Below, piece after piece: positions 1,323 to 59,160 of a DNA stretch of 64,000 bases. The translations under genes were made by a program, and so were the position numbers. The notes under the pieces were generated by a model, which saw only the letters and a program-made list of their open reading frames with translations, made no database searches and was not told where the DNA came from. How positions within the stretch are numbered: position 1 is the first letter of the stretch; every line of letters starts with the position of its first letter. The stretch is from a virus, in the IMG/VR virus record IMGVR_UViG_3300027719_000003, positions 1-64,000 of that record; one strand, written 5' to 3'.

Positions 1323-1350
1323 TTTAGTCAGGTTGAAGCAGTTGTTATAC
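1323..1350 (-). other. half attC-like site at the end of the methyltransferase gene
   Basis: Bases 1323-1347 are identical over 25 bases to 52204-52228, the left half of the attC-like site behind the cassette gene at 52226. It contains the core GTTATAC (1344-1350) and CAGGTT-g-AAGCA (1329-1340) with the same extra G. The complementary right half is missing. The methyltransferase stop codon lies inside it, as is common for integron cassettes. Confidence 0.6.
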
Positions 1351-2119
1351 GTCTTTCTATTATCTTACAATATTCTTCTGATATTTCAGAACCGATCCAG
1401 TTACGCTTATTGAGCATTGCCATTTTAGCTGTGGTTCCTGAGCCCATGAAGGGGTCGTAAACCAAGTCTCCTTCATTGCTCCATGATATGATATGATCGT
1501 TAGCTAATTGTTCTGGAAATATAGCGGGGTGTTGAAAAGCGATTTTGTCTTGTGTAGAATGTCCTGCCCCGGCATTTATTCTCCAGATATTACCTTTTAT
1601 CTTATCTACACCAACAGGTTTCCTTTTCTTTTCTGATCGAGCCGCCCTGTTTACTTCATCTGTTTTAGAGAAATAGCTGTTTTGTCGTGCTGTTTCTTTT
1701 TCTGGGTACAAGCAAGGCACACGGATAGGATTAAATGTTTTTGGTGCTCCTTTAGAGAGCACAAACATATATTCAAAATCCTGCTCATATCTGTTATGGT
1801 TTTTAGGTAGGCAGTTTTTATGATATATCATAGTGTCATGCAGATTAAAACCACATTCCTTAAAAAATAATGCTTGTCTAAACGAAGTACCCGTTTCGCT
1901 TCTTTTAATCGTAGCATCACCAACAACCCAAACCACAACCCCGCCTTGCTTTGTCACTCTATATAGCTCTTTAGCTACTGCCTCAAAATCAAAACTATAG
2001 CCATTGTAGGTTCTCAGATTGTCATAAGGAGGGCTTGTCACAGTTAGGTCAATAAAGTTGTCTGGCATCCTTGCCATAGTGTCAAGGCAGTTTTCATTGT
2101 AGCATTTATTTATTTCCAA
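1328..2119 (-). CDS. site-specific DNA methyltransferase (SPPY type)
   Basis: This 263-residue enzyme transfers a methyl group from S-adenosylmethionine to DNA. Motif IV is TSPPYDNLR near residue 28 and the AdoMet motif I is DPFMGSGTTAKM near residue 220, which is the beta-class order. SPPY is typical of N4-cytosine or some N6-adenine enzymes. The start is TTG 2119 behind AAAGGAGAAAG. No restriction partner is visible, so self-protection or regulation is likely. It is flanked by the 39-bp repeat (2183-2221) and a half attC-like site (1323-1350), so it looks like an inserted gene cassette. Confidence 0.88.
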   Translation of the reverse strand: MEINKCYNENCLDTMARMPDNFIDLTVTSPPYDNLRTYNGYSFDFEAVAKELYRVTKQGGVVVWVVGDATIKRSETGTSFRQALFFKECGFNLHDTMIYHKNCLPKNHNRYEQDFEYMFVLSKGAPKTFNPIRVPCLYPEKETARQNSYFSKTDEVNRAARSEKKRKPVGVDKIKGNIWRINAGAGHSTQDKIAFQHPAIFPEQLANDHIISWSNEGDLVYDPFMGSGTTAKMAMLNKRNWIGSEISEEYCKIIERRITTAST

Positions 2120-2182
2120 TTCTTTCTCCTTTGCGGATTGTAGGCATAACTTGTTATGCCTTTTGCCGTCCGTATAACTATG

Positions 2183-2221
2183 ATTATACCTATCGGTATA
2201 ACTACATCCAAAAATCCCTAT
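2183..2221 (-). repeat. 39-bp direct repeat, attI-like copy 1
   Basis: All 39 bases match 52593-52631. The repeat contains the dyad TTATACC-gata-GGTATAA. In both places it sits just upstream of a leftward gene, followed within a few bases by a GTT core (GTTATAC here) and a shared leader containing ACAATCCGC before the ribosome site. Here it abuts the 3' end of a tRNA-like sequence. Confidence 0.8.
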
Positions 2222-2223
2222 AT

Positions 2224-2281
2224 ACGAGCAGTTGGGTTCGAACCAACGTCCACATGGTGCATTACCTAATGCTACGGTAGC
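2224..2281 (-). other. tRNA-like sequence 2 lacking an anticodon arm
   Basis: On the minus strand there is a perfect T-arm (GTTGG-TTCGAAC-CCAAC), a D-arm GCAT-TAGGTA-ATGC and an acceptor strand TGCTCGT, whose partner GCTACCG pairs only partly. Only 11 bases lie between D-arm and T-arm where about 23 are expected, so no normal anticodon arm fits. It is probably a degenerate tRNA gene. Confidence 0.45.
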
Positions 2282-2342
2282 GAACGGAGGACTCGAACCC
2301 CAATCTCCATGTGTGTCCTAGTCCTCGTAGACGATGCTCGCA
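2279..2342 (-). other. tRNA-Glu-like sequence 1 lacking an anticodon arm
   Basis: Acceptor strands TGCGAGC and GTTCGCT pair at six of seven positions. The D-arm TCGTCT...GGACAC closely resembles bacterial tRNA-Glu, and the T-loop is TTCGAGT. About ten bases are missing where the anticodon stem-loop should be, and the T-stem has one mismatch. It overlaps tRNA-like sequence 2 by three bases. It is unlikely to be a working decoding tRNA. Confidence 0.45.
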
Positions 2343-2348
2343 TGAACT

Positions 2349-2906
2349 CTACATCCTCCCAAAAATGATATTAACATACTCAATAGTCGATGCCGGAATA
2401 TCCCCACTAAGTACTCGTTCCAACCCGGCATTATACGAAGCGAATGCCAATTTCCAGTCCCCCGTTTGATCATATAGAAACGCCAAATGCTTTCCGGCGA
2501 ATTCCAATGCATCATTGACATTACTAGGGCAAAATCCCTCTATATTGTACTTCCACCCAAAATACTTCACATATTTGGAATTTACTTGCACCAATCCAAT
2601 ATCATAGGAGCCATTAGTATTAGGGCCACTCATCTTTTCTGGATCAAACCCTGACTCCCACTCTACCATATTGATAAAGTATTCAAGGGGGATATTATAC
2701 TCCATGCAAGTAAAAACCAGCTTTTCTCGAATGGCTTCCGGTACTCTGTCGAGAGGGGACGGAGTGAAGTCTACTATGCCAATATCATCCATTTTGTCTC
2801 CGTACACAACCTCAAATGGAAGAGGTAAGTATGCACTTGCCCCAATAGATGTCAGGATCGCCAGCACTACTAAGCCCACTCCTGTTTTACGCACTGGTGT
2901 CACCAC
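2349..2906 (-). CDS. membrane-anchored lytic transglycosylase (SLT fold)
   Basis: An N-terminal hydrophobic segment (about residues 8-28) is followed by an SLT-type muramidase domain. The motifs are VEWESGFDP with the catalytic Glu near residue 82, YDIGLVQVN and FASYNAGL. Such enzymes cleave peptidoglycan for genome entry or release. The start is GTG 2906, overlapping the previous stop; its ribosome site is weak, so a start a few codons later is possible. It is remote from the endolysin, which hints at a role in entry. Confidence 0.82.
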   Translation of the reverse strand: MVTPVRKTGVGLVVLAILTSIGASAYLPLPFEVVYGDKMDDIGIVDFTPSPLDRVPEAIREKLVFTCMEYNIPLEYFINMVEWESGFDPEKMSGPNTNGSYDIGLVQVNSKYVKYFGWKYNIEGFCPSNVNDALEFAGKHLAFLYDQTGDWKLAFASYNAGLERVLSGDIPASTIEYVNIIFGRM

Positions 2907-3364
2907 GAATCGATGGAATGGATAAACTCAACACCTTTGTCAGTGTCAAACCAGAATCTTCGACGCCATGCGCGCACTTCAATCAAATCTTTGGTCTGAA
3001 CTACTTCATCCTCCATCAGCATTGCAATGGCCAGTATCGACAGCCGATCAGAATGATCCACTGTTTTGATTATATAATGCTTTGTAACCTTTGGTTGTGT
3101 GTCCAATATATATGCCTTTTCAGTAGTCAAGGCAGACAATTTCCCTACACGCGGCCAGAATACATAGGATATTCCCGGAACCCGTATGAGATATGATTCG
3201 TCTTCCCGAATAGAGCCATTCAGTTTACAAAACATGCCTTCTGGAGTATGTTCATACGGATCGGCACCAGCAGGCACCACAGCCACTACAACTCCTGCCC
3301 GCTCTATATTCACCCCCCCTACTGGAATCTCCCAATAAACCTGATCGCCACAATTAAACTTCAT
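2900..3364 (-). CDS. hypothetical protein, 154 aa
   Basis: The start ATG 3364 follows CGAGGAGGC, and a consensus promoter lies at 3389-3417. The N-terminus (MKFNCGDQVYWEIP ... GVVVAVVPAG) looks like a small SH3-like barrel, and the rest has no recognisable motif. It overlaps the transglycosylase by seven bases and is probably co-transcribed with it. Confidence 0.6.
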   Translation of the reverse strand: MKFNCGDQVYWEIPVGGVNIERAGVVVAVVPAGADPYEHTPEGMFCKLNGSIREDESYLIRVPGISYVFWPRVGKLSALTTEKAYILDTQPKVTKHYIIKTVDHSDRLSILAIAMLMEDEVVQTKDLIEVRAWRRRFWFDTDKGVEFIHSIDSW

Positions 3365-3388
3365 GTACGCCTCCTCGTTGATATAAAT

Positions 3389-3417
3389 AGTGTACTACAA
3401 CTTCAGGGAAAAGTCAA
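3389..3417 (-). promoter_or_regulatory. sigma70-like promoter
   Basis: On the minus strand TTGACT (3417-3412), 17 bases, then TACACT (3394-3389). It lies at the end of the replication-initiator-like gene and drives 3364 and the genes beyond. Confidence 0.78.
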
Positions 3418-4724
3418 GCATAATCGTCTGGCCTCTGCTCAAACAATCTCTCTAACTGATCCCCTCGCTGGTCAGCCCTATTGTACAATGCTTCATCAAA
3501 CACGATCTTCACCCCTATCGACTTCTTCACCGACAATGCGAACTCATCCCAATACGGCGACCCTAGCACAAGGTCGGCAGGATATGGTGTCCTATTCTTT
3601 CTCGCCGCCATTCTCCCAAGGAATTCCGCAAGCCCCAGCATGGCATTCCTACCTATGATAGTGCCATACCGTTTATCCTGCTCAACCAAATCTTTCCTAT
3701 GTTCCAGATACCAGTTGTGGAGTTTCCATAATGCGGCCACTACCGGCTCACTAAAATCAAACCGTTGGTACATTCGCTTTATCATCTTCAGTGCATCTTG
3801 GAAAATCTGGTCAGCTACCATCTCATCCTTATCGCTCTTCTCGATCTTGGCAACCGGCTTGAAGGGAACCTTCTTTCCGGTACGCATCTCGGCTATCGCG
3901 TCGAGCAACGGACTCTTCCCTGACTTGAAGTTACGGAAGAAATTCGGTAGGGACGTGACATACGCTGGTATACGCTTACACGCTTCGGCTATCTCCTCTG
4001 CTGTCACGGGGCCTATCGTCGTATAGTCATAGCTCGGATTCTCTGGCTTGTACTTGGCTACGAAGGAACCATCGAGTAGGGCACCATACTGATTGTAGAC
4101 TGTAGTTATACCTTTATACGTCTTGCCATTACCATCCTGTATCTTCGGTTTAAGGTGTGATACTTCCTTAACATGATCTATAAACGAAATGAACCAATCA
4201 GGTAGTGGCTTGGATTTGGATTCTTCGGGGAATAAATTATCACCTGAAGGAGTGGGCTGGGGCACTACTGCACCTGTAGCCTTATACTGCAACCACTCCT
4301 TGCACACGGTCTCTGTATCAATGTCTGCCTTCGTTTGATAGAACAGAAAATGACGGACTTGCATGGGTATGTGAAAGTACACACGATGTCCCGTCTCGGG
4401 ATCATGTTGGTTATACTTTTCTAACAGGCCACGCTCTACCAGTTTACGTATCACTGTGCTAAGGTTATGCGTACTCGACACTGGTACCATTTTATAGTAT
4501 CGCAAAAAGGTTGAGTAACACATCCACGCATAGTCTTTACCATCTATAATGAGGATGTTAGTCTTAGTACCATCCAGCAACCACTTGATCCATCCTAACA
4601 ACGCGGCCTCAGTGTAGGATAGATTATATTCTGCGGCGACGGGGCCATAGATACCCCCACCACAGGGGTATCGAGCTGTCTCTCTCCATGAAGCACATAG
4701 CTCCTGTAACTCATCTGTAGCCAT
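3414..4724 (-). CDS. winged-helix replication-initiator-like protein
   Basis: The 436-residue product has an N-terminal winged-helix-like segment (about 25-120): YTEAALLGWIKWLL, then STVIRKLVERGLLEK. This pattern is seen in phage and plasmid initiator proteins and DnaD-like proteins. A linker and helical C-terminal half follow. It may bind the iteron-like repeats at 6020-6080 and recruit the phage helicase; that is inference from position and fold. The start ATG 4724 follows TTGGAGGAC. Confidence 0.55.
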   Translation of the reverse strand: MATDELQELCASWRETARYPCGGGIYGPVAAEYNLSYTEAALLGWIKWLLDGTKTNILIIDGKDYAWMCYSTFLRYYKMVPVSSTHNLSTVIRKLVERGLLEKYNQHDPETGHRVYFHIPMQVRHFLFYQTKADIDTETVCKEWLQYKATGAVVPQPTPSGDNLFPEESKSKPLPDWFISFIDHVKEVSHLKPKIQDGNGKTYKGITTVYNQYGALLDGSFVAKYKPENPSYDYTTIGPVTAEEIAEACKRIPAYVTSLPNFFRNFKSGKSPLLDAIAEMRTGKKVPFKPVAKIEKSDKDEMVADQIFQDALKMIKRMYQRFDFSEPVVAALWKLHNWYLEHRKDLVEQDKRYGTIIGRNAMLGLAEFLGRMAARKNRTPYPADLVLGSPYWDEFALSVKKSIGVKIVFDEALYNRADQRGDQLERLFEQRPDDYA

Positions 4725-4747
4725 ATTTGTCCTCCAATATACAGTGA

Positions 4748-4777
4748 GGGTACTGCCCTAAAATTGGAGCAGTACCC
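4748..4777 (-). terminator. intergenic hairpin
   Basis: GGGTACTGC (4748-4756) pairs with GCAGTACCC (4769-4777), nine perfect base pairs with a 12-base loop, between two leftward genes. There is no clear T-run, so it may be an mRNA-processing or pausing structure rather than a full terminator. Confidence 0.4.
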
Positions 4778-4787
4778 GCTTACTATA

Positions 4788-5714
4788 CTAGTCTGTGATT
4801 ATATCAGGGTAATATTCAGGGCACCCGTCATCAGGATTATTTACATAAGTGACTTTAACCCAATCACTATCTTCCGGGGGCATACCCTGCCAACACGCTT
4901 CATCACTGCATTTATTGTCGTCACACTCGGGGTGTTCTGCGGCCCATACAATAAGACTAGGCATCACAGACAGCAACCACTTCTCAAGTTGACGTATCTT
5001 CACAGCCGCCTGTAAGTATGTCTCATCCTCATCCATACGGGACACGAAAGCAAGAACATCTTCATCAATAGCTTTTTGCGTAGGCAGATCACTCTGATTT
5101 AGATACCCCTGTGCTCTAAGATAAGGGAATACAGCCTTCCATGGAACATTACTAAAATGTTTAACACATAAGCCAATACTAATAACACTCTCACACTGCA
5201 TCAAGGCATCATAATCTGCCAATTTAGAAGCAATATCTGTATCACTATCTAGTGGTACCTCTTGTGAAACTCCATTAATAGAAGTAGCTACAGTGTGCCA
5301 CCCATTAGTAAATCCGCCCTTAAATATGTCAAACGTAACCGATGCCCTTGTTTCCATTGTGCCACTCTCATCTAAAAACTGTAATGGGGGTACTCTGCTA
5401 AGGAATTCATCCAAAGAAAGTCTAAACAACTCCCCATTATTGACTCTGTAGGAACCAAACTCCTTGTGTAGATATTGCTCTATTTCTGCATGGTTAGTAC
5501 ACGCCTGAGTAAATGCGATTCGTCCAATAACAACATCAGAATAATTAAATGCAGAACTTTTAAGAGCACGTGATCTTTTTCTAAGATGAGTTGTGTGCCC
5601 TATTTTTATGCAGTCCCCATACTCTAGTGCATACACGTGCCCAAACCATACAGGGCTTTTCTTGGGTAAAGCCCCCACATCATCCACGATAGTCCAATCA
5701 GTCTGCTTATCCAT
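4788..5714 (-). CDS. T5orf172 / GIY-YIG-like domain protein
   Basis: The 308-residue product carries a T5orf172-type domain (about 22-105): GHVYALEYGDCIKIGHTT, then AEIEQYLHKEFGSYRVNNGE and LFRLSLDEFL. This is a variant of the GIY-YIG nuclease fold. The remaining 200 residues are unrecognised, with a Cys/His-containing acidic C-terminus (HPECDDNKCSDEACW). The start ATG 5714 follows AGGAGGAC. Its 5' leader carries the long stem at 5737-5805. Function unknown; DNA cleavage or antirepressor roles are known for relatives. Confidence 0.72.
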   Translation of the reverse strand: MDKQTDWTIVDDVGALPKKSPVWFGHVYALEYGDCIKIGHTTHLRKRSRALKSSAFNYSDVVIGRIAFTQACTNHAEIEQYLHKEFGSYRVNNGELFRLSLDEFLSRVPPLQFLDESGTMETRASVTFDIFKGGFTNGWHTVATSINGVSQEVPLDSDTDIASKLADYDALMQCESVISIGLCVKHFSNVPWKAVFPYLRAQGYLNQSDLPTQKAIDEDVLAFVSRMDEDETYLQAAVKIRQLEKWLLSVMPSLIVWAAEHPECDDNKCSDEACWQGMPPEDSDWVKVTYVNNPDDGCPEYYPDIITD

Positions 5715-5736
5715 ATAGTCCTCCTAGAAACGAAAA

Positions 5737-5805
5737 GGAGATTATAGAGTCCCCCGTGCAAGGGTTGGGGCTAGGTAGCGGCTAGCCTTGGACTCTATAA
5801 TCTCC
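5737..5805 (-). ncRNA. long structured leader hairpin
   Basis: GGAGATTATAGAGTCC (5737-5752) and GGACTCTATAATCTCC (5790-5805) form a perfect 16-bp stem. The 37-base loop holds a second hairpin, GGCTAG/CTAGCC. It lies between the promoters at 5862-5987 and the gene starting at 5714, so it is in that mRNA leader. A cis-regulatory element or small RNA is possible. Confidence 0.5.
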
Positions 5806-5861
5806 CTAATAACTCTGCTACTGCGAAGTATCATGACGGTTGCACCCGGCATGATGCAAGT

Positions 5862-5890
5862 AGTGTAGCACACTTTTTCGATTTTGTCAA
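5862..5890 (-). promoter_or_regulatory. sigma70-like promoter
   Basis: On the minus strand TTGACA (5890-5885), 17 bases, TACACT (5867-5862). It reads leftward into the structured leader and the gene at 5714. Confidence 0.75.
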
Positions 5891-5958
5891 GTACTATTTT
5901 CAATACCCGCCATACTGCCACTATGAGGGGGCACATCCCTCCACCGCAGTATAGCAGG

Positions 5959-5987
5959 AGTGTATCATGCAATCACAGATTAGTCAA
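5959..5987 (-). promoter_or_regulatory. sigma70-like promoter, upstream copy
   Basis: On the minus strand TTGACT (5987-5982), 17 bases, TACACT (5964-5959). It forms a tandem pair with the promoter at 5862-5890. Confidence 0.72.
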
Positions 5988-6019
5988 GCACTATGGAGGT
6001 ATAAACCATAGAGGGGGTA

Positions 6020-6080
6020 GGTCTTATAAATAGATGGGGTGGTCTTAAAAGTAAACCGACCCCGGTCTTAAAAGTAAACC
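6020..6080. repeat. iteron-like direct repeats
   Basis: GGTCTTAAAAGTAAACC occurs at 6041-6057 and 6064-6080, and a partial copy GGTCTTATAAA begins at 6020. Start-to-start spacing is 21 and 23 bases, about two helical turns, which suggests a protein-binding array such as an origin or operator. Confidence 0.55.
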
Positions 6081-6102
6081 TTCTTAATATAATCATATAG
6101 AT

Positions 6103-6144
6103 AATAAATAATATAGTATACTATCATATACTATATTATTTATT
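6103..6144. other. 18-bp perfect AT-only palindrome
   Basis: AATAAATAATATAGTATA (6103-6120) is the exact reverse complement of 6127-6144, with a six-base centre. Together with the iterons it could be an AT-rich unwinding element of a replication origin. The rest of 6145-6438 shows only short dyads (GTTATTCT/AGAATAAC and GGCGAA/TTCGCC) and no convincing gene. Confidence 0.55.
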
Positions 6145-6438
6145 GGAATGATAGTGTTATTCTTAACAGAATAACAGGCGAAAATTCGCCTTCTTCTTTT
6201 TTCAGTGGACTGTAAGAAGGTACAAGATGCTATCCACCTGAAGATAATCTATAAGTAGTTATTGCGTTTTTCGCCCATCGCACCCATCATTATGCCTCCA
6301 TCCCGTCGCTATAGCGGTTTCCTGCGTCACCACGGCGTTTTCTGAACGAGTGCCATAGTTTCCCTCTATATAATGGTGCATTGATTCTAGGGGCCTTCTC
6401 GTTGAATCTAGGATAGGTAGGAATTTGTAGGATTTTGC

Positions 6439-6467
6439 TTGACTTTTTGTATGAGTGGTAGTACACT
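6439..6467 (+). promoter_or_regulatory. sigma70-like promoter
   Basis: TTGACT (6439-6444), 17 bases, TACACT (6462-6467). Transcription would begin near 6474, only about 25 bases before the proposed AUC start at 6499. Confidence 0.78.
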
Positions 6468-6498
6468 CTGTTTAAGTTTTTGGAAGGAGGGTACAATC

Positions 6499-7251
6499 AT
6501 CTGTGACTTTATTTCTTGGATAGAGAAAGACGGAAAGCTCTACTGGTCTAGGGATGACGAAGTAGAGGCCGAATATGGTGAGATAACCAATCAACATTGT
6601 GGGCATGGTACCATACGGGAACTGCACAAGTTGAAGGGTGGTATTGAGTATGAGTCTGCCCTCAAGATTCCGCGAGAGATAGCGGCCTCAGTAAATCGTG
6701 GCGAGATGAAGAAACTTGCCAAGGCTGGTGGTTGGCACGGGGCACACTACACTGTTGGTGGTGCGAATAATACCACCTATTGGATTAGGTTCAAAAAAGA
6801 ATTGAAGAAGTATAAGGGAGTAACCTATATTTTGGATAACCACGGCCCCATTGATCCTGAGTGGAGGATATTTGACACGAGGGAACAGGCTAGGGAACAG
6901 GCTAGGGATCAGGCTAGGGATCAGGCTTGGGAACAGGCTTGGGAACAGGCTAGGGAACAGGCTAGGGAACAGGCTAGGGAACAGGCTTGGGAACAGGCTA
7001 GGGATCAGGCTAGGGATCAGGCTAGGGATCAGGCTAGGGATCAGGCTAGGGGTCAGGCGTGGTATCAGGCTAGGGATCAGGCTAGGGATCAGGCGTGGGA
7101 TCAGGCATATGTAGTGTCTGCCGTACTTCTTGAAGGCTACGAGACTTCAGAATGGTACGCCTATTGTAAGAAGCGTCTGGATATATGGGAAGCAGGATAT
7201 GGTGTACTATGCGATATCAACGGAGTCTTCTATGTGTATAAGAGCCTATAG
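6499..7251 (+). CDS. tetrapeptide-repeat protein with apparent AUC start
   Basis: The only ribosome site (GGAAGGAGG, 6482-6490) is eight bases before ATC TGT GAC at 6499. No ATG, GTG or TTG occurs in frame between the promoter and residue 70. I recall related phage proteins beginning MCDFISWIE; here the reading is ICDFISWIEKDGKLYW, so AUC probably serves as the start. The product (about 250 aa) has an N-terminal conserved-looking domain of about 125 residues, 19 tandem [RW]x-Q-A tetrapeptides, and a C-terminal segment ending GVFYVYKSL. Function unknown. Confidence 0.65.
   Translation: MCDFISWIEKDGKLYWSRDDEVEAEYGEITNQHCGHGTIRELHKLKGGIEYESALKIPREIAASVNRGEMKKLAKAGGWHGAHYTVGGANNTTYWIRFKKELKKYKGVTYILDNHGPIDPEWRIFDTREQAREQARDQARDQAWEQAWEQAREQAREQAREQAWEQARDQARDQARDQARDQARGQAWYQARDQARDQAWDQAYVVSAVLLEGYETSEWYAYCKKRLDIWEAGYGVLCDINGVFYVYKSL
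6880..7107 (+). repeat. 19 tandem 12-bp units encoding RxQA/WxQA
   Basis: The units are variants of AGGGAACAGGCT / AGGGATCAGGCT and code for R-E-Q-A, R-D-Q-A, W-E-Q-A and similar, 19 in a row over 228 bases. Most variation is at the first residue (R or W) and the second (E or D). Such near-identical 12-mers are prone to slippage, so copy number should vary between isolates. Confidence 0.95.
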
Positions 7252-7260
7252 ATAATATAG

Positions 7261-7294
7261 TTGTCAGGAGTATAACATATATTCCTGACAATTT
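7261..7294 (+). terminator. hairpin after the repeat-protein gene
   Basis: TTGTCAGGA (7261-7269) pairs with TCCTGACAA (7283-7291), followed by a short T-run. It closes the 6499-7251 transcript before the next promoter. Confidence 0.6.
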
Positions 7295-51007: not shown

Positions 51008-51283
51008 TTATCTTTTTTCAAACAAATGGAACACAAGAGTACCTGCTCTCATCTGAAACGTCCCTACGAATTCAGAAGCATCACAGACACAGGGGTGCCC
51101 AGTTCCATGAATGATAAAAGTTCGGTTAGTGGTGTCTGCTTCCGTGTCAACCAGTGCCCACATACATGGTATGCCGTCCTGCATCTGAACAGACAATACT
51201 TCCGCACCTTCTGGCATAGCGATTATCTGTTCATCCGTTATGGCAAGCGGGAACTTCCATATACTCTTCGTGATACTCTCCAT
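51008..51283 (-). CDS. conserved phage protein (DUF7352-like)
   Basis: The 91-residue product (SIWKFPLAITDEQIIAMPEG, VQMQDGIPCMWALVD, FIIHGTGHPC, EFVGTFQM) matches a very common phage/prophage family of unknown function. ATG 51283 follows AAGGAGGATTTT. Confidence 0.78.
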   Translation of the reverse strand: MESITKSIWKFPLAITDEQIIAMPEGAEVLSVQMQDGIPCMWALVDTEADTTNRTFIIHGTGHPCVCDASEFVGTFQMRAGTLVFHLFEKR

Positions 51284-51293
51284 AAAATCCTCC

Positions 51294-51500
51294 TTACTTT
51301 CGCTTCACCATGAAACGTTCTCCATCGAACCCATCCTTTCCTTGCTTACATGCTTCCTCAATTTGTAGTTCATAAAATTCAGTGGATTCTTGAAGTCGTG
51401 CTACTTGTTCCCTCAACTGCTGTAGCTGTCGAGAATATGTAGCAAGAGAGGCCGTCATATTCCTAAGACATTCTCGATGCCATTTTATGGACATTTTCAT
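51294..51500 (-). CDS. small coiled-coil protein, 68 aa
   Basis: ATG 51500 follows AAGGAGCATC and is driven by the promoter at 51519. The sequence (YSRQLQQLREQVARLQESTE) is a coiled coil. No family was recognised. Confidence 0.6.
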   Translation of the reverse strand: MKMSIKWHRECLRNMTASLATYSRQLQQLREQVARLQESTEFYELQIEEACKQGKDGFDGERFMVKRK

Positions 51501-51518
51501 ATGATGCTCCTTATCAAG

Positions 51519-51547
51519 AGTGTACTACATTTTTACATAGAAGTCAA
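51519..51547 (-). promoter_or_regulatory. sigma70-like promoter
   Basis: On the minus strand TTGACT (51547-51542), 17 bases, TACACT (51524-51519), directly after the cassette array. Confidence 0.78.
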
Positions 51548-51558
51548 GTTATTATGAA

Positions 51559-51786
51559 TCAGGTTAAATCTGTGTTAGCCACCCCATTGGAACTGCGTTT
51601 CAATCCCAACTGTTCCGGGTCTAGGTAAAACACGGGGCCACGAAAACCGCAAGCGCACCACACGTTTACTATTTGTCGCCCGTTTTCGTCCGTGTATCCT
51701 TCCGGCCCATGAAGCTCATGCCCACAATCTTTTGGAAGATGCGAAAACGGGCACTCGTACTGCGAATAATCGAAAATGTTTTTCAA
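51559..51786 (-). CDS. cassette gene C: small Cys/His protein, 75 aa
   Basis: TTG 51786 follows TTGGAGGAACAC and is preferred over an earlier TTG. The product has CPFSHLPKDCGHELHG and WCACGFRGPVFY, a probable zinc site, and ends VANTDLT within a half attC-like sequence. It is the third gene of the array. Function unknown. Confidence 0.58.
   Translation of the reverse strand: MKNIFDYSQYECPFSHLPKDCGHELHGPEGYTDENGRQIVNVWCACGFRGPVFYLDPEQLGLKRSSNGVANTDLT
51560..51580 (-). other. half attC-like site behind cassette C
   Basis: CAGGTT (51560-51565) and the core GTTAGCC (51574-51580) match the left half of the attC-like sites. The matching right half (AACCTG and outer core) is absent, as if the array was truncated next to the promoter at 51519. 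Confidence 0.5.
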
Positions 51787-51856
51787 GTGTTCCTCCAATG
51801 GGGCTTGGGCAGTAATCGGTATAAGCGGCCCCAAGCGCTTATACCGTGGACGATCT

Positions 51857-51915
51857 GGCTAACATTTGCTTAACCTGCAAGGCCGTTAGGACTTGTCAGG
51901 TTCAAGCTGTTATTG
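51857..51915 (-). other. attC-like site 2
   Basis: GCTTAACCTG (51868-51877) pairs with CAGGTT-c-AAGC (51897-51907), ten base pairs with one unpaired base. Outer cores are GGCTAAC (51857-51863) and GTTATTG (51909-51915). The loop carries its own CAAG/CTTG hairpin. The architecture and the position of the extra base are those of integron attC sites. The stop of the DUF551 gene lies inside it. Confidence 0.75.
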
Positions 51916-52112
51916 GGTGCTATGGGCGCTTCCGGTATATGCATCCAATGGGTGTATCCCTTAATAAGCATACACTCACGACGAAAATCATCATCCCAAG
52001 GCCCAGTGAAAGCGCCATGATCTGCCAGACGTTTTTTATGATGATCGTCCCATACGTCGAAACGCGTATTAAGCGGTGGAAGTTCTTCTGTGACGCTAAT
52101 CCATCCAGACAT
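51870..52112 (-). CDS. cassette gene B: DUF551 protein
   Basis: ATG 52112 follows ACAGGAGGAATT. The 80-residue product has WISVTEELPPLNTRFDVWDD and GYTHWMHIPEAP, the DUF551 pattern common in phages and gene cassettes. Its last 14 residues (NNSLNLTSPNGLAG) are read through the attC-like site, a typical cassette feature. Function unknown. Confidence 0.8.
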   Translation of the reverse strand: MSGWISVTEELPPLNTRFDVWDDHHKKRLADHGAFTGPWDDDFRRECMLIKGYTHWMHIPEAPIAPNNSLNLTSPNGLAG

Positions 52113-52181
52113 AATTCCTCCTGTAATCTCGCCCGTAGCTTGGCGCGTGTCCGCGTAACTTGTTACGCGGCTAAAGCGTCC

Positions 52182-52231
52182 ATCCAACATTTGCTTAACC
52201 TGCTTTAGTCAGGTTGAAGCAGTTGTTAGGA
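52182..52231 (-). other. attC-like site 1
   Basis: TGCTTAACCTG (52192-52202) pairs with CAGGTT-g-AAGCA (52210-52221): eleven base pairs, one extrahelical base and a seven-base loop. The outer core ATCCAAC (52182-52188) reads GTTGGAT on the minus strand and fits GTTRRRY; the other core is GTTAGGA (52225-52231). The base order parallels the aadA-type attC. The stop codon of cassette gene A is inside the core. Confidence 0.8.
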
Positions 52232-52519
52232 ACTATTGTATTTGTCACACAACGCTTTGATCTTTTCTGCGACTTCACGGAATCCATTTTCCTTTCCGCC
52301 GTATTCGCGATCAATAATAACCTGAGCCATTTCCGGCGCAAGAGCAATCAAGCGCATGTTTATTTCGCGCTGTTCGTCGTCGCCGTATCCTGTATAATCG
52401 TCTCCGCATACGTCGAGCGAGTACGCCATTCCCGGAGCTTTATCTGCCTCAACAAACGGCGCTAGACCGTGCGAACTTTCACGAATCTTCCACGGCCCTT
52501 TAGTCCACGGTGTTTTCAT
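52226..52519 (-). CDS. cassette gene A: NxRLIAxAPE-type protein, 97 aa
   Basis: ATG 52519 follows GAAAGGAAGAAAG; the upstream extension contains the attI-like repeat and is excluded. The product begins MKTPWTKGPWKIRESSHGLA and has EINMRLIALAPEMAQVIID, a signature of a common phage protein group without known function. It is the first gene of the array, driven by the promoter at 52645. Confidence 0.72.
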   Translation of the reverse strand: MKTPWTKGPWKIRESSHGLAPFVEADKAPGMAYSLDVCGDDYTGYGDDEQREINMRLIALAPEMAQVIIDREYGGKENGFREVAEKIKALCDKYNSS

Positions 52520-52592
52520 GCTCTTTCTTCCTTTCGCGGATTGTCCGCGTATTGGCGTAGCCGATATGCGGCTGTCCGTCGTCCTAACAAGT

Positions 52593-52631
52593 ATTATACC
52601 TATCGGTATAACTACATCCAAAAATCCCTAT
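52593..52631 (-). repeat. 39-bp direct repeat, attI-like copy 2
   Basis: All 39 bases match 2183-2221. It lies between the promoter at 52645 and the core GTTAGGA (52590-52584 region) that begins cassette A, the position expected for an integron attI site. It contains the dyad TTATACC-gata-GGTATAA. Confidence 0.8.
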
Positions 52632-52644
52632 GTTCTTGCCATAA

Positions 52645-52673
52645 GTATACCGCATCTCCCTGCAAAAGTCAAG
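52645..52673 (-). promoter_or_regulatory. sigma70-like promoter for the cassette array
   Basis: On the minus strand TTGACT (52673-52668), 17 bases, TATACT (52650-52645). It is in the position of a cassette promoter, immediately before the 39-bp repeat. Confidence 0.78.
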
Positions 52674-52676
52674 CAC

Positions 52677-53270
52677 TTATGGCAGTTCCTCCACCGATTT
52701 CACCATAGGAATTCCCACCCCTATAGCCACGGCTTCCTCCACCAAAGCACCCTTAGACTTATCATATCCCGGCAGAAGCAACACCCAGTCTGCATCCATC
52801 ATGGCCCGAATATCTTCCCGCATATAATCCTGCCACGTCTTCCATTTAGAGACGATAGACAGATCAAATGGGCTTATTGCCGTGTACCCCTTAGCCTCTA
52901 CCGCCTTTACCGCTTCAGCGAACGCTTCACGATTGTAGTTCACTATCCCCGTAATAGGGCCGGATATATACACCCGCTTCCCATTCACATGGCCTTGGTG
53001 ATCGAACCAGCCTATATAGTATAAACAGCATATAGCGTGGGCAATGTGGGGAAGACCAGACTCCCTATCGATGACTTGGCCCATAGCCCGCTTCCATAGA
53101 TGCCGGAAGGCGGCGGCTATATAGCGTAGCTTGGCGTTGGGCACCTTCTTCCAATTATCGGGGGAATACTTCTTAGCCCCGAACGTGAGCACCTTGGCTA
53201 CGTCCTCGTGCGGCTCTGCCGGGATGAGATCGTAGCGTAACTTGTCCTGATCGTATTTTACACCCTGCAT
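52677..53270 (-). CDS. DUF5664 (dNTP pyrophosphohydrolase-like) - DUF4406 fusion
   Basis: Residues 1-95 (GVKYDQDKLRYDLIPAEPHE, VLTFGAKKYSPDNW, YIAAAFRHLWKRAMGQ, DRESGLPHIAHAICCLYYI) fit the DUF5664 MazG-like dATP/dGTP diphosphohydrolase group. Residues 103-197 (RVYISGPITGIVNYNREAFA, AISPFDLS, MMDADWVLLLPGYDKSKGAL) fit DUF4406, a deoxyribosyltransferase-like fold. One chain with two nucleotide-handling domains implies a role in phage dNTP pools. ATG 53270 follows AAGGAGGCAAC. Confidence 0.8.
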   Translation of the reverse strand: MQGVKYDQDKLRYDLIPAEPHEDVAKVLTFGAKKYSPDNWKKVPNAKLRYIAAAFRHLWKRAMGQVIDRESGLPHIAHAICCLYYIGWFDHQGHVNGKRVYISGPITGIVNYNREAFAEAVKAVEAKGYTAISPFDLSIVSKWKTWQDYMREDIRAMMDADWVLLLPGYDKSKGALVEEAVAIGVGIPMVKSVEELP

Positions 53271-55140: not shown

Positions 55141-55315
55141 TGGGCTGTGCCTCCTTAAATATACTTAGTCCTGTCTTTGTCTTTTTAACATAAAAGGTAG
55201 AATCATCTCGAAAAGTGTAGACACAATCTTTGTGTTCATTTTTTAACATGTCATCTATCATGGCGCTTATCTTTTCTGAATCATAGGACTCCATATTGTT
55301 AATAATTACTCGCAT
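55115..55315 (-). CDS. hypothetical protein, 66 aa
   Basis: ATG 55315 follows GAAAGGAGATGC; the ATG six bases earlier lies within that site. The product (MRVIINNMESYDSEKISAMI) overlaps the polymerase stop upstream and the dUTPase start downstream. No family was recognised. Confidence 0.55.
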   Translation of the reverse strand: MRVIINNMESYDSEKISAMIDDMLKNEHKDCVYTFRDDSTFYVKKTKTGLSIFKEAQPSETTLQKT

Positions 55316-58300
55316 CTGCATCTCCTTTCAGCGTTCCTGCTTCACTCATCTCTGCCCATGATCCATCGATCTCGGACTGCTCCTTTTCGATAGTCAGTGG
55401 TACGTTAATCCAGTCCCAATGCTCCCGTACCTTCTGCGTCCCATAATCCCAATACCAGTAATCAATCAAGTCCTGTTCACTTGGATGGGCGTCGAAAATA
55501 CAACTATCGTGAATCTCTCCAATGATCCTAGAGCGCTCCAGCCGCATGACCTTTTTATTGACTTGATTCATCGTCCATTGTAAAATATGGTACGAACTGC
55601 CTTGCACTGGTGTATTGAATGTATTATTTCTACTCATAGGCCCATAACACTTGAACCCCGTCTTCAGCTCGACATACCCGTGCTTCTGGTAAAATTTCCA
55701 TTGTGACTCACGCCATTCATTATGTACAGGAAAGCGGTCTTCCCACAGGATACGTTCTGCTTCCTGTATATGTCTCTCGAAATCATCGAAATTCTTTACA
55801 CCCTTGTCAAAAAGATGCTGGCGTAAATTATGTACCTCGGCGGTTTCCCACAAGTCCTTAGCAACCTGTTTGTAGAAAGAGCCATAGAACTCGGCAAAAA
55901 CAAATTGGCCCTTCACATCTCCACGTAATGCTTTTGTAACCTCCTCTGGTTTAAGCATGAAGCAATCGGCGGCAGAGTCTCGATGCATGTCGGTAGTAGG
56001 ATCGAGCAGATACTTAATAAGTGTCGGGTCTTTTGAGAACATGCAATTCCCGGAAACTTCCAAAGATTTGTAGTCCATTTCTACAATCCTATTACCTTTA
56101 GAGGGAGTTATGAACTCTCGCAGTAACTTTTTAGCGTTTTTGTCCCGCTTAGGTTGGTTTTGAACGTTTGGAGCGTTGGCAGAATTATGCACGCAAATCT
56201 CATTGGCGATAAAGTTATGCGTATCCTCTACTTCCAGATCATACACATCCACTGCATCAGGAAGGACTTCTACAGCATAAACTGTTCTTACGCCGTCTGC
56301 CAAATACTCATAAGGCAAAATGACTCCTCCTAGCACTAGTTGGAATTTCTTCTCCTTCAGAAGCCTCCCTGCCTCAATATAATCCCCATCATTTTTACGA
56401 ATCAAATGCTCTGGAGTTACATCGAGATGAATTTCATAAATGCCGTCCTCGTTATACCCTCCAATATAATGTAGCCGCACTACATTACGATGCCCAGTCT
56501 TTCCTGCCCACAGGACACGTTTATGTGTCATGGTGTACTTATCCGAATACGTTATAGCGTATGCGTTCTCTATATCCTCTACATTCTCTATACACACTTC
56601 CCTAACATTATTTCCATTAGAGTCGCATATCAGTACCTTACTCCCCCTAGCCACGCAAGACCTAAAAGTATCTACCCTATTGATATTAAAGTACGGATGA
56701 ATCTTCCCACCAATCACCTCAGTCTTGTACTGTGCTATATATGTATTCCGCATCTTGAACAGCTTACGATACGCCAATATATCCTTTATGATCGGCACAT
56801 CCAACTTCGCCAACGTCTCCTCATCCACGCTAGGCTTCTTGGCGTCGGTGTATTTTGTCGGTGTAAGCCCCATAATCTCATAGAGAAGTTTTGATAACTG
56901 TGGAGATGACTGATAATTAAACGTCCCATCTGTCCACTGTCCCAATAAGGGGCTTCCCATGATCTTCTGGTGCTGTACAAGCATCTGCGTGTCCAGTTCT
57001 TCCTGTACCTCCTGTAGCTTGTCAAGAGTGACATTGAACCCATTGGCCTGAGCAATCGTTAATGTCTGTGCCGACTCCATAAAGAATTCAAAACCTTTAC
57101 GCTGAAAGGCAGACATACGGGCAGACTGGCGATCAGCCAGCTTGAAGGTGTAGAGAGAATCCAAGGCACCATAGGTAAGTAAAGGTTCCATGGGGGCACG
57201 ATGTATCTGGTTGATAGCGTTGGCACCATGTAGTTTCTCCTCTGCGGCAGTTGCCTTGAGATATTCATCCACCTCATCATCATACCCAGAGTGGCCGAAT
57301 TCAGTATAGACCATGAACTTGAGGCCCGTAGGCTTTTGGTTACTCAGGCAGTGTTGAGCAAGCATCGTATCCCAATCCCAGTTCGCTACCCAATAGCCGC
57401 ATTGTACATACGTCCATAGCATCTCGAATGAAAGGTTCTGTGCTATTTTCTTGACATCTGAAAGCATAAGAGCCTTCCATGCGGCTTTGAACTTATCACT
57501 CGTAAAGAACGGGAATGAATAGGAAGCATAGCCATCGCTAATCGATACTGACCATATCTTCTGGCCTTCCCGGTGCGGCTTCCTTCCCGTGGTCTCATAG
57601 TCGAACGCCATACGCTTCCAGCTCATAGCCTGTTCAATCCACTCGATAGCCTTTGACTCATCCTGCGTGATGGCAGTCTGGTCTCTATAATCTATTAAAG
57701 ATACTGGCTGTAGATTAAAGGCTTTATAGAGATGATCTTTCCACATACCATAGAAGGCTATGTCTCGTTCATACCGTGGCTTTGATTCATTGCCATCATC
57801 ATACGACTTCCGCTCCATCATAGACGCTACAGACCAGATCGGCGTGAGCCATGTCTTATATTCCTGATCGGGAATATGTTCTCCTACAAAGGCAGAAAAC
57901 GCTAGTCCGGTAATACGTCCAGAAAGGCGTGGCTCAATAAGCGAATCAAAGCCGGTTTCACCAAGAAGAATGATAGACACCGGCTTCAGCTTATTGATAA
58001 GGCTAAGAAGCCTAGAACGACAAGCGCTGATCTCCGTGAAGTTCGGGGCACGATTCTTTGATGGGGCACAATTGATAGCCGTAGTGTAGTAGCAATCCTT
58101 CGCCATGTCAATACCAAGCTGACGAAGGGTATCATGGATGAAACAATACTCTAGGCCAGAACCAAGCTCCCCAGCGTCGTCTTCATCATAGGAAGGCCGA
58201 GTGCCAACGATAAGTACTTGCTTCTGGCCTTCCCCGGTGAAACGGAGCTTAGGGCTATGGCACCCCTCGTTCAGCCTACAATCTTCACACGACAAGGTAG

Positions 58301-58382
58301 AGCGTTTGACTGCTACCTTGGAGGACACCCGCTCATCGCCCCGAATGGTTGGGGCGTCCTCAAGTAAGTTAAAAAACCCCAA
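55299..58382 (-). CDS. DNA polymerase A with N-terminal UDG-like domain and intein
   Basis: The 1027-codon product has four parts. Residues 28-190 resemble family 4 uracil-DNA glycosylase: Cys 32, 35, 105 and 121 have the 4Fe-4S spacing, with INCAPSKNRAP and IILLGETGFDSL. The catalytic GEAPG motif reads GTRPS, so activity is doubtful. A DEDD 3'-5' exonuclease follows (FDYETTG, Asp 261 and Glu 263). The polymerase has motif A VEMDYKSLEVSG, motif B around KGQFVFAEFYGSFYKQ and motif C GEIHDSCIFDA. An intein occupies 576-733. SPO1-type phages also fuse UDG-like domains to PolA. Mature extein is about 869 residues. Confidence 0.93.
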   Translation of the reverse strand: MGFFNLLEDAPTIRGDERVSSKVAVKRSTLSCEDCRLNEGCHSPKLRFTGEGQKQVLIVGTRPSYDEDDAGELGSGLEYCFIHDTLRQLGIDMAKDCYYTTAINCAPSKNRAPNFTEISACRSRLLSLINKLKPVSIILLGETGFDSLIEPRLSGRITGLAFSAFVGEHIPDQEYKTWLTPIWSVASMMERKSYDDGNESKPRYERDIAFYGMWKDHLYKAFNLQPVSLIDYRDQTAITQDESKAIEWIEQAMSWKRMAFDYETTGRKPHREGQKIWSVSISDGYASYSFPFFTSDKFKAAWKALMLSDVKKIAQNLSFEMLWTYVQCGYWVANWDWDTMLAQHCLSNQKPTGLKFMVYTEFGHSGYDDEVDEYLKATAAEEKLHGANAINQIHRAPMEPLLTYGALDSLYTFKLADRQSARMSAFQRKGFEFFMESAQTLTIAQANGFNVTLDKLQEVQEELDTQMLVQHQKIMGSPLLGQWTDGTFNYQSSPQLSKLLYEIMGLTPTKYTDAKKPSVDEETLAKLDVPIIKDILAYRKLFKMRNTYIAQYKTEVIGGKIHPYFNINRVDTFRSCVARGSKVLICDSNGNNVREVCIENVEDIENAYAITYSDKYTMTHKRVLWAGKTGHRNVVRLHYIGGYNEDGIYEIHLDVTPEHLIRKNDGDYIEAGRLLKEKKFQLVLGGVILPYEYLADGVRTVYAVEVLPDAVDVYDLEVEDTHNFIANEICVHNSANAPNVQNQPKRDKNAKKLLREFITPSKGNRIVEMDYKSLEVSGNCMFSKDPTLIKYLLDPTTDMHRDSAADCFMLKPEEVTKALRGDVKGQFVFAEFYGSFYKQVAKDLWETAEVHNLRQHLFDKGVKNFDDFERHIQEAERILWEDRFPVHNEWRESQWKFYQKHGYVELKTGFKCYGPMSRNNTFNTPVQGSSYHILQWTMNQVNKKVMRLERSRIIGEIHDSCIFDAHPSEQDLIDYWYWDYGTQKVREHWDWINVPLTIEKEQSEIDGSWAEMSEAGTLKGDADASNY
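56184..56657 (-). mobile_element. mini-intein in the DNA polymerase
   Basis: Residues 576-733 (158 aa) form a HINT domain: Cys1 in CVARGSKVLICD, block B HLDVTPEHLI, block F VYDLEVEDTHNFIANEI, terminal His-Asn (CVHN) and Ser+1. Removing it restores VDTFRS-SANAPNVQNQP, a conserved polymerase motif. There is no homing-endonuclease domain, so the intein should splice but cannot home by itself. Confidence 0.93.
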
Positions 58383-58392
58383 TCAGTCCTCC

Positions 58393-59160
58393 TTATGCTT
58401 CTTCTATCCGTTTCTTAGCGATCTCAAAGTAAGTATCGTCTTTTTCTATACCGATGAATCTTCTGTATAGGTTCTTGCAAGCTACTCCTGTACTGCCCGA
58501 ACCCATAGCATTGTCTAACACAATCTCGCCTTCAAGCGTGTAGGTCTTAATCAGGTATTCAAGAAGGGCTACTGGCTTTTGAGTTGGATGCACTTTTCCA
58601 CGTGCATCCCTAGCAAAGTATATAAGTTGTTTGGCTAATAGCTTATCTGGTTCGTAATCTCTACCATGATAATTCTGGGTTTCATCCATCACTGTCTCTG
58701 ACCAAGAATCCCCCATCACATCTTTCACATTTTTAGTAATCTTACTGGGATTTTTAGAAAGATGCCTACGGGATACCCCTGCTGGATTTATGGTTTTCTG
58801 TGAATTATACGTGGGCTGATGCGCATAAAACACACTTATAATTTCTATTATTTTTATGGGCATTTTATTACCAAAAAGAAAGTTTGCCCCTTTGTCTTTC
58901 TCCCAGTACCAGTCATAGCGGTAATCCTTTATATTACTCAGCCTCAAAGAACTTGAAAACGGCTCACTACCAAACAAAACTATAGCGCCATCGTTCTTAA
59001 TGATTCTCTTATATTGCTCCCATAGTGGCTCAAACGGGATAACCGCGTCCCACTTACATTTTGTAGTGCCATAAGGAAGATCACATAGAATCATATCGAC
59101 GCTTTTATCTGCTATGCTTTGCATTTCAACAAGACAGTCACCATGAATTAGTGTCGCCAT
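58393..59160 (-). CDS. DNA adenine methyltransferase (DLPY type)
   Basis: The 255-residue enzyme has motif IV LCDLPYGTTKCKWD near residue 25 and motif I VLDNAMGSGSTGVACK near residue 225, the beta-class order, with VHPTQKPVALLEYLI before it. DLPY is a variant of the D-P-P-Y catalytic tetrad of N6-adenine enzymes. It likely protects phage DNA from host restriction. ATG 59160 follows AAGGAGGTAGGA. Confidence 0.87.
   Translation of the reverse strand: MATLIHGDCLVEMQSIADKSVDMILCDLPYGTTKCKWDAVIPFEPLWEQYKRIIKNDGAIVLFGSEPFSSSLRLSNIKDYRYDWYWEKDKGANFLFGNKMPIKIIEIISVFYAHQPTYNSQKTINPAGVSRRHLSKNPSKITKNVKDVMGDSWSETVMDETQNYHGRDYEPDKLLAKQLIYFARDARGKVHPTQKPVALLEYLIKTYTLEGEIVLDNAMGSGSTGVACKNLYRRFIGIEKDDTYFEIAKKRIEEA

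Follow-up and report, generated by a model that had tools for sequence, protein, structure and literature searches.

Integron-type cassette arrays behind two copies of an attI-like site in a tailed-phage genome

The genome of a tailed phage, deposited as IMG/VR record IMGVR_UViG_3300027719_000003 (73,585 bp, possibly incomplete), probably holds a CALIN that has an attI-like site of its own, present twice, to which cassettes would be supplied in trans by a host IntI. Positions 1-64,000 of this record, a stretch of 64,000 nucleotides referred to here as the window, were analysed. The structure and family of the attC sites, the closure of the cassettes, an attI-like motif shared among phages, and duplicated platforms with different cassettes were established in this study; recombination by a host IntI, the identity of the host and any benefit to the phage are inferred.

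The phage record

Terminase, portal, protease, tape measure and family A DNA polymerase genes were recognised in the window, indicating a tailed phage. No counterpart of its terminase was detected in 21 other records, many of which are fragments. The promoter-like sequence TTGACT-N17-TANACT was matched 17 times in the window with at most one mismatch, against 1.4 expected, and is likely the phage's own promoter family, an inference made from sequence alone. In addition, the family A DNA polymerase ORF (55299-58382, minus strand) has an apparent intein-like insertion, as judged by eye, and a tandem repeat of 12-bp units (about 19 registers) lies at positions 6833-7156.

As the record is a metagenomic contig, and the left junction of the array described below is present in one contig only, a chimeric assembly, in which phage contigs were joined with contigs of a bacterial integron, has to be considered. 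However, contig L001, also from IMG/VR, shows no difference over a stretch of 8454 bp that begins within cassette 1 and reaches into phage genes, although it may come from the same sample, and arrays with this anatomy are found again in many contigs and in TJE1, an isolated phage. We regard a chimera as very unlikely.

attC sites and cassettes of platform A

Platform A is read on the minus strand. A member of the phage promoter family (TTGACT-N17-TATACT, 52672-52644) is followed by a 39-bp leader, found by a repeat search (52631-52593), and by three cassettes, the first core being GTTAGGA at 52588. Cassette 1 (52188-52587) extends from G|TT to G|TT and contains an ORF of 97 aa without a Pfam family (52519-52226); it is closed by the site attC1 (52231-52182). 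Cassette 2 (51863-52187) contains an ORF at about 52112-51870, whose product belongs to DUF551 (PF04448, 35.6 bits), and is closed by the site attC2 (51918-51857). Cassette 3 (51559-51862) is truncated at its own attC; its ORF (51786-51559) has no Pfam family, and a half attC retaining only R'' (GGCTAAC) and L'' closes the array at 51580-51559. The stop codons of all three ORFs lie inside the attC or half-attC sites, and another phage promoter (51547-51519) is located directly after the half attC.

The attC sites were evaluated with a covariance model (R1) built from 45 sites in viral and bacterial (MAG) contigs, none of them from the window. The model matched attC1 with 66.6 bits (E=9e-14) and attC2 with 56.5 bits (E=3e-11). 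The same model detected the class 1 attCs after aac(6')-IIa (44.9 bits) and aadA16 (31.2 bits), which ties the phage attC family to the textbook attCs. The stem pairs covary, and this includes pairs that were not forced by the search pattern, which had imposed pairing on part of the stem. When folded as single-stranded DNA, attC1 and attC2 each give the hairpin of an attC, with a single extrahelical base; the bottom-strand z-scores were -4.6 and -5.4, respectively, and none of 200 shuffles folded equally well. Both sites have the R''/R' boxes (RYYYAAC/GTTRRRY), paired L''/L' boxes, an extrahelical base and a variable tip. No attC fold was obtained for the half attC at 51580-51559 as single-stranded DNA. 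The 20-mer AACAACTGCTTCAACCTGAC was found in 28 IMG/VR DNA stretches, and about 24 IMG/VR contigs have a model-supported attC of this family. A model from class 1 and Vibrio sites alone was dropped because these sites are too diverse, and an Rfam scan, which was empty, is uninformative because Rfam has no attC family.

These results show that the two dyads are real attC sites; their recombination by an integron integrase is inferred. The dyads are imperfect palindromes 3' of genes and could as such be ordinary terminators or regulatory hairpins, but this explanation is all but excluded by the model matches, the cassette closure described below, the GTT borders, and the absence of any terminator-like site in region 51400-52800. 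With at least two attCs close together and no intI, array A meets the CALIN criterion.

Closure of the cassettes

The R'' box of a true cassette matches its own start because both were joined in the circle. R'' was complementary to the start of its own cassette at all four variable letters in 33 of 47 attC-bounded cassettes, most of which hold one small ORF; across 5000 shuffles the mean was 3.6 and the maximum 11. In the window, the genes meet the integron-cassette test of R'' closure and G|TT borders. R'' matched the cassette start at 7/7 letters in cassettes 1 and 3 and at only 5/7 in cassette 2, where the R'' of attC2 (ACCCAAT) is atypical.

An attI-like site shared among phages and present twice in the window

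Locating the first core of each array solely through its match to R'', we compared the 24 nt upstream. They align without gaps across phages as approximately TTATRC-n6-GNATAAT-n4-GTTRRRY, a motif common to the heads of 14 arrays. In a leave-one-out ranking that ignored the core letters, the true head ranked first in 12 of the 14 contigs; in the remaining two, the only sequences to score as high or higher were the second copy of the same head or that head's palindromic reverse. In contigs fetched later, the motif scored 27-38 at array heads (L086, L087 and L088) and at most 9.0 in contigs without arrays. At least 16 contigs retain it, with phage-specific letters. Class 1, Vibrio and Shewanella integrons scored at background, as expected if attI is integrase-specific. 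An exact 20-mer of the window's leader occurred in no other IMG/VR contig, since the letters of attI are particular to each phage.

In platform A, the site is located at 52582-52612 on the minus strand (gttatacc-gata-ggtataat-actt-GTTAGGA). A second copy of the 39-bp leader, about 50 kb away (2221-2183, minus strand), heads platform B (2221-1323), which has the same leader-to-core spacing; its attI-like site, identified by the same motif ranking, lies at 2172-2202 on the minus strand (gttatacc-gata-ggtataat-cata-GTTATAC). The two sites differ at four bases just left of the core. The cassette of platform B encodes an N6_N4 DNA methyltransferase (1328-2119, minus strand; PF01555, 161 bits) and ends in a half attC (1350-1323, minus strand; GTATAACAACTGCTTCAACCTGACTAAA); the R'' of this half site (GTATAAC) fits the start of the cassette (GTTATAC) at 7/7 letters. 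One leader thus precedes different cassettes in the two platforms. Having only a half attC, array B alone would not count as a CALIN. A tRNA-like remnant (2281-2223, minus strand; 27.7 bits, gathering score 29) was observed immediately 5' of platform B.

A conserved primary site at the array head with L and R boxes, as is expected of an attI, is present, the boxes being named by analogy. It is therefore likely that the 39-bp leader region holds a site in the attI position, its use by an integrase being inferred.

Most of the preliminary description of this region was supported by these results. The promoter-led array held, with the promoter at 52672-52644 instead of 52673-52645, and so did the proposal of a 39-bp repeat in the attI position, through the motif ranking. 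The attC hallmarks claimed at 52182-52231 and 51857-51915 were upheld by the covariance model and by single-strand folding, with coordinates right to within a few bases; the stop codons inside the sites and the DUF551 gene were both confirmed. Of the attC-like ends described for the three genes, the third is a half site only. Platform B (2221-1323) and the termination of the arrays in half attCs had been missed.

Half-attC ends and a hairpin at the cassette start

At least 12 arrays terminate in a half attC in which R'' and L'' are kept and L' and R' are missing (both window arrays and those of L004, L005, L007, L008, L013, L015, L018, L022, L024, L028 and L087), and other arrays end in a full attC. 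The half sites are cut near the hairpin tip, and several directly precede a ribosome-binding site. A nuclease acting on the hairpin tip was considered as the cause of the half sites but is not proven: the break in L087 lies further on, and sites whose left half is intact were favoured by the search pattern. Orphan L' halves, which would mark insertion into the attC tip, were not found in the window, and none that was convincing was found beside the phage half sites. Loss of the terminal attC might lock the last cassette in place, and the half site could conceivably provide homology for exchange; both are inferences.

In nearly all cassettes, a stem containing a bulged A comes after the start GTTRRRY-N-GA-Y (GA in 55 of 56); in the window, examples are located at 52188-52131, 51863-51806 and 2178-2119, and others are found in L005-L036. 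Among 37 non-redundant cases, pairing of the stem with its own partner was seen in 34, compared with 18.7% for cross-pairs, and the mean leader fold z-score was -1.86 at cassette starts versus -0.15 mid-cassette. An inner hairpin is added in the phage cassette starts, and several bacterial cassettes carry only the short form. No description matching this conserved, covarying hairpin at the cassette head was found in the literature searched. It might serve as an RNA leader or as a second folded DNA site.

Cassettes shared between dissimilar phages

Window cassette 1 and a cassette of contig L008 are 97.1% identical over 383 bp, from GTT core to GTT core except at the attC tip, and in the 13 kb compared nothing else was common to the two loci except other cassette parts. 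In L022, two copies of one attI lead into different cassettes, as in the window. L007, L022 and L024 share a downstream gene preceded by differing cassettes, with the borders at GTT or inside the half site. Cassette sharing between dissimilar phages and the G|TT borders are thus shown; recombination itself was not observed.

Two plain genes of the window have cassette homologues elsewhere: a DUF7352 gene just downstream of array A (51008-51283, minus strand), whose homologue is the first cassette behind attI in L012, and an N6_N4 DNA methyltransferase gene (58393-59160, minus strand), whose homologues are cassettes in L016 and L019. An exact empty site was not seen; in L069, the closest relative found (76% aa identity in a neighbouring gene), the array is absent, but the neighbouring genes also differ. 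No relatives were found through the transglycosylase gene near platform B.

An alternative that remains possible is that homologous recombination by phage or host recombinases now shuffles the cassettes through the short, near-identical attC halves (about 20 nt) and cassette heads, IntI having acted only in bacterial ancestors. In its favour, L022 and L024 carry different last cassettes before the same half attC and gene, with identity beginning inside R''; the R'' of attC2 misfits its own cassette in a hybrid-like manner; the attC tips differ between the 97%-identical cassettes; and identical 20-nt half sites recur across phages. Against it, the cores that form the left borders are preceded by a conserved attI-like motif, for which homologous recombination would have no need, and closure holds for most cassettes.

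Integrase genes in phages and hosts

No tyrosine recombinase (PF00589) was found anywhere in the 73,585 bp of the possibly incomplete record, so that the criterion of a complete integron, an intI beside the array, was not met in the record of the window. Nor was any found in 22 sister records, most of which are fragments, and an integrase elsewhere cannot be excluded.

The absence of an integrase, the broken last attC in both arrays and the entry route proposed for TJE1 (see below) would also suit an inert relic, in which pieces of a host integron had entered by rare illegitimate recombination. We consider this unlikely, as the attI-like motif is kept with phage-specific letters in so many contigs, duplicated attIs lead into different cassettes, and a 97%-identical cassette is present in a dissimilar phage.

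In bacteria, a spirochaete-like MAG contig (L075) carries a broken intI, an attI-like site (19.8, the best in the contig), a cassette and an attC in this order. This intI is transcribed toward the attI-like site, which is the published Treponema arrangement (PMC3607928). L076 has a weak match to the attI-like motif near intI. Among MAGs with phage-type attCs, four intI scored above the cut-off, mostly not adjoining attCs of that type. The cassette of L075 is a methyltransferase cassette; the contig also carries ccdAB-like genes, and its title, Borreliella garinii, looks misassigned.

A Spirochaetales chromosome contig (L036) has, at 1512-7275, an attI-like site with cassettes side by side with an SbcC-like gene and with an SSB gene that is shared with the phages L008, L009 and L011; the region could perhaps be a prophage and a clue to the host. 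Phage record L015 (IMGVR_UViG_2751185592_000001) and L032 (LVBK01000060.1, from the MAG Spirochaetales Spiro_09) are apparently one 23,964-bp contig, and this MAG also contains an intI.

The earlier statement that no integrase is visible held and was extended to the full record, and the dependence on an integrase of the host or elsewhere remains an inference. The outcomes that would have refuted the cassette interpretation, namely no hit by an attC model, dyads that proved to be terminators, or no boundary changes at the GTT cores, all came out the opposite way.

Proposed mechanism and its implications

In the explanation that we prefer, the phage carries two copies of an integron without an integrase. 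Each copy has an attI-like site, behind it between one and three promoterless cassettes with attC sites and, at the far end, a half attC by which the last cassette would be fixed; platform A is headed by a phage promoter. The cassettes would be captured in the host cell by a host integron integrase acting in trans, perhaps of spirochaete type, which would recombine the folded bottom strand of the cassette attC with the phage attI at G|TT. Once in place, the cassettes would be transcribed by the phage as an operon and carried between cells. Several points weigh against this explanation, among them the lack of any observed recombination and of an exact empty site, the four bases that differ between the two attI-like sites of the window, and the position of most intact intI genes away from attCs of this type. 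In addition, intI is broken and the motif score weaker in the best example from a host, and the host of TJE1 is an actinomycete, which means that Spirochaetes alone do not account for the hosts.

A bolder reading is that many dissimilar phages keep attI platforms, often two per genome, share a phage-specific cassette pool marked by the hairpin head, load the platforms with host integrases, and convert methyltransferase and DUF7352 genes into cassettes or the reverse. We are inclined to doubt this reading, narrowly; if it were true, phages would count among the places in which integron cassettes are formed. Resistance genes and others are carried from one bacterium to another by integrons, and the origin of their cassettes is an open question. 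With phage landing sites, shared cassettes, and genes that occur now as a cassette and now as a plain gene, the transfer of cassettes, and perhaps also their formation, becomes testable in phages, and the short attI-like motif provides a handle for finding platforms in phage collections.

Comparison with known systems

Phage CALINs, including those of lytic phages such as TJE1, have been published before, and as a general concept they are not new. In 2023, Qi et al. (PMC9892861) described 17 phage CALINs, some with methyltransferases, and five of six phage attCs tested were IntI1 substrates; attC1 and attC2 of the Tetrasphaera phage TJE1 were recombined by IntI1 in E. coli, and off-target or illegitimate events were proposed for their entry. 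We identified TJE1 from the literature, as a short attC query had returned no isolated phage at E 0.01. This isolated phage carries the attC family of the window (48-67 bits) and resembles the window in having a DUF551-like cassette, a methyltransferase cassette with a similar start, and no integrase. A palindrome in TJE1 (TGTTAGACCGATCGGTCCAAC), read as a terminator by Qi et al., occupies the place of the window's attI-like site in a similar layout, but it lies three rather than four bases from the core and is scored poorly by the motif model. Furthermore, TJE1 shows one array, whereas the arrays studied here show an attI-like motif common to several phages, two platforms in a genome, and ends formed by half attCs. 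No description of the shared phage attI motif, the duplicated platforms or the half-attC ends was found in the literature searched, which left out most subscription journals.

The chromosomal integrons of Treponema and other spirochaetes (PMC3607928) resemble the phage arrays in that this attC type occurs in spirochaete MAGs and in that L075 has an attI-like site between the broken intI and the cassette. The phage arrays differ from them in being short, in lacking intI and in having a half attC as their last site. Class 1 mobile integrons share with the phage arrays the attC fold with an extrahelical base, the G|TT borders, and promoterless cassettes behind a promoter; in contrast, they have no intI1, no attI of the attI1 type and no resistance genes in the phage. 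The Shewanella prophage M16-3 and the Vibrio phage Va_90-11-286_p16 likewise have integron parts in a phage record, but encode an integron integrase next to the array. What is likely new in comparison with these systems are the attI-like platforms common to phages, often two in one phage, and, with similar confidence, the recurrent half-attC ends and the covarying hairpin at the cassette starts.
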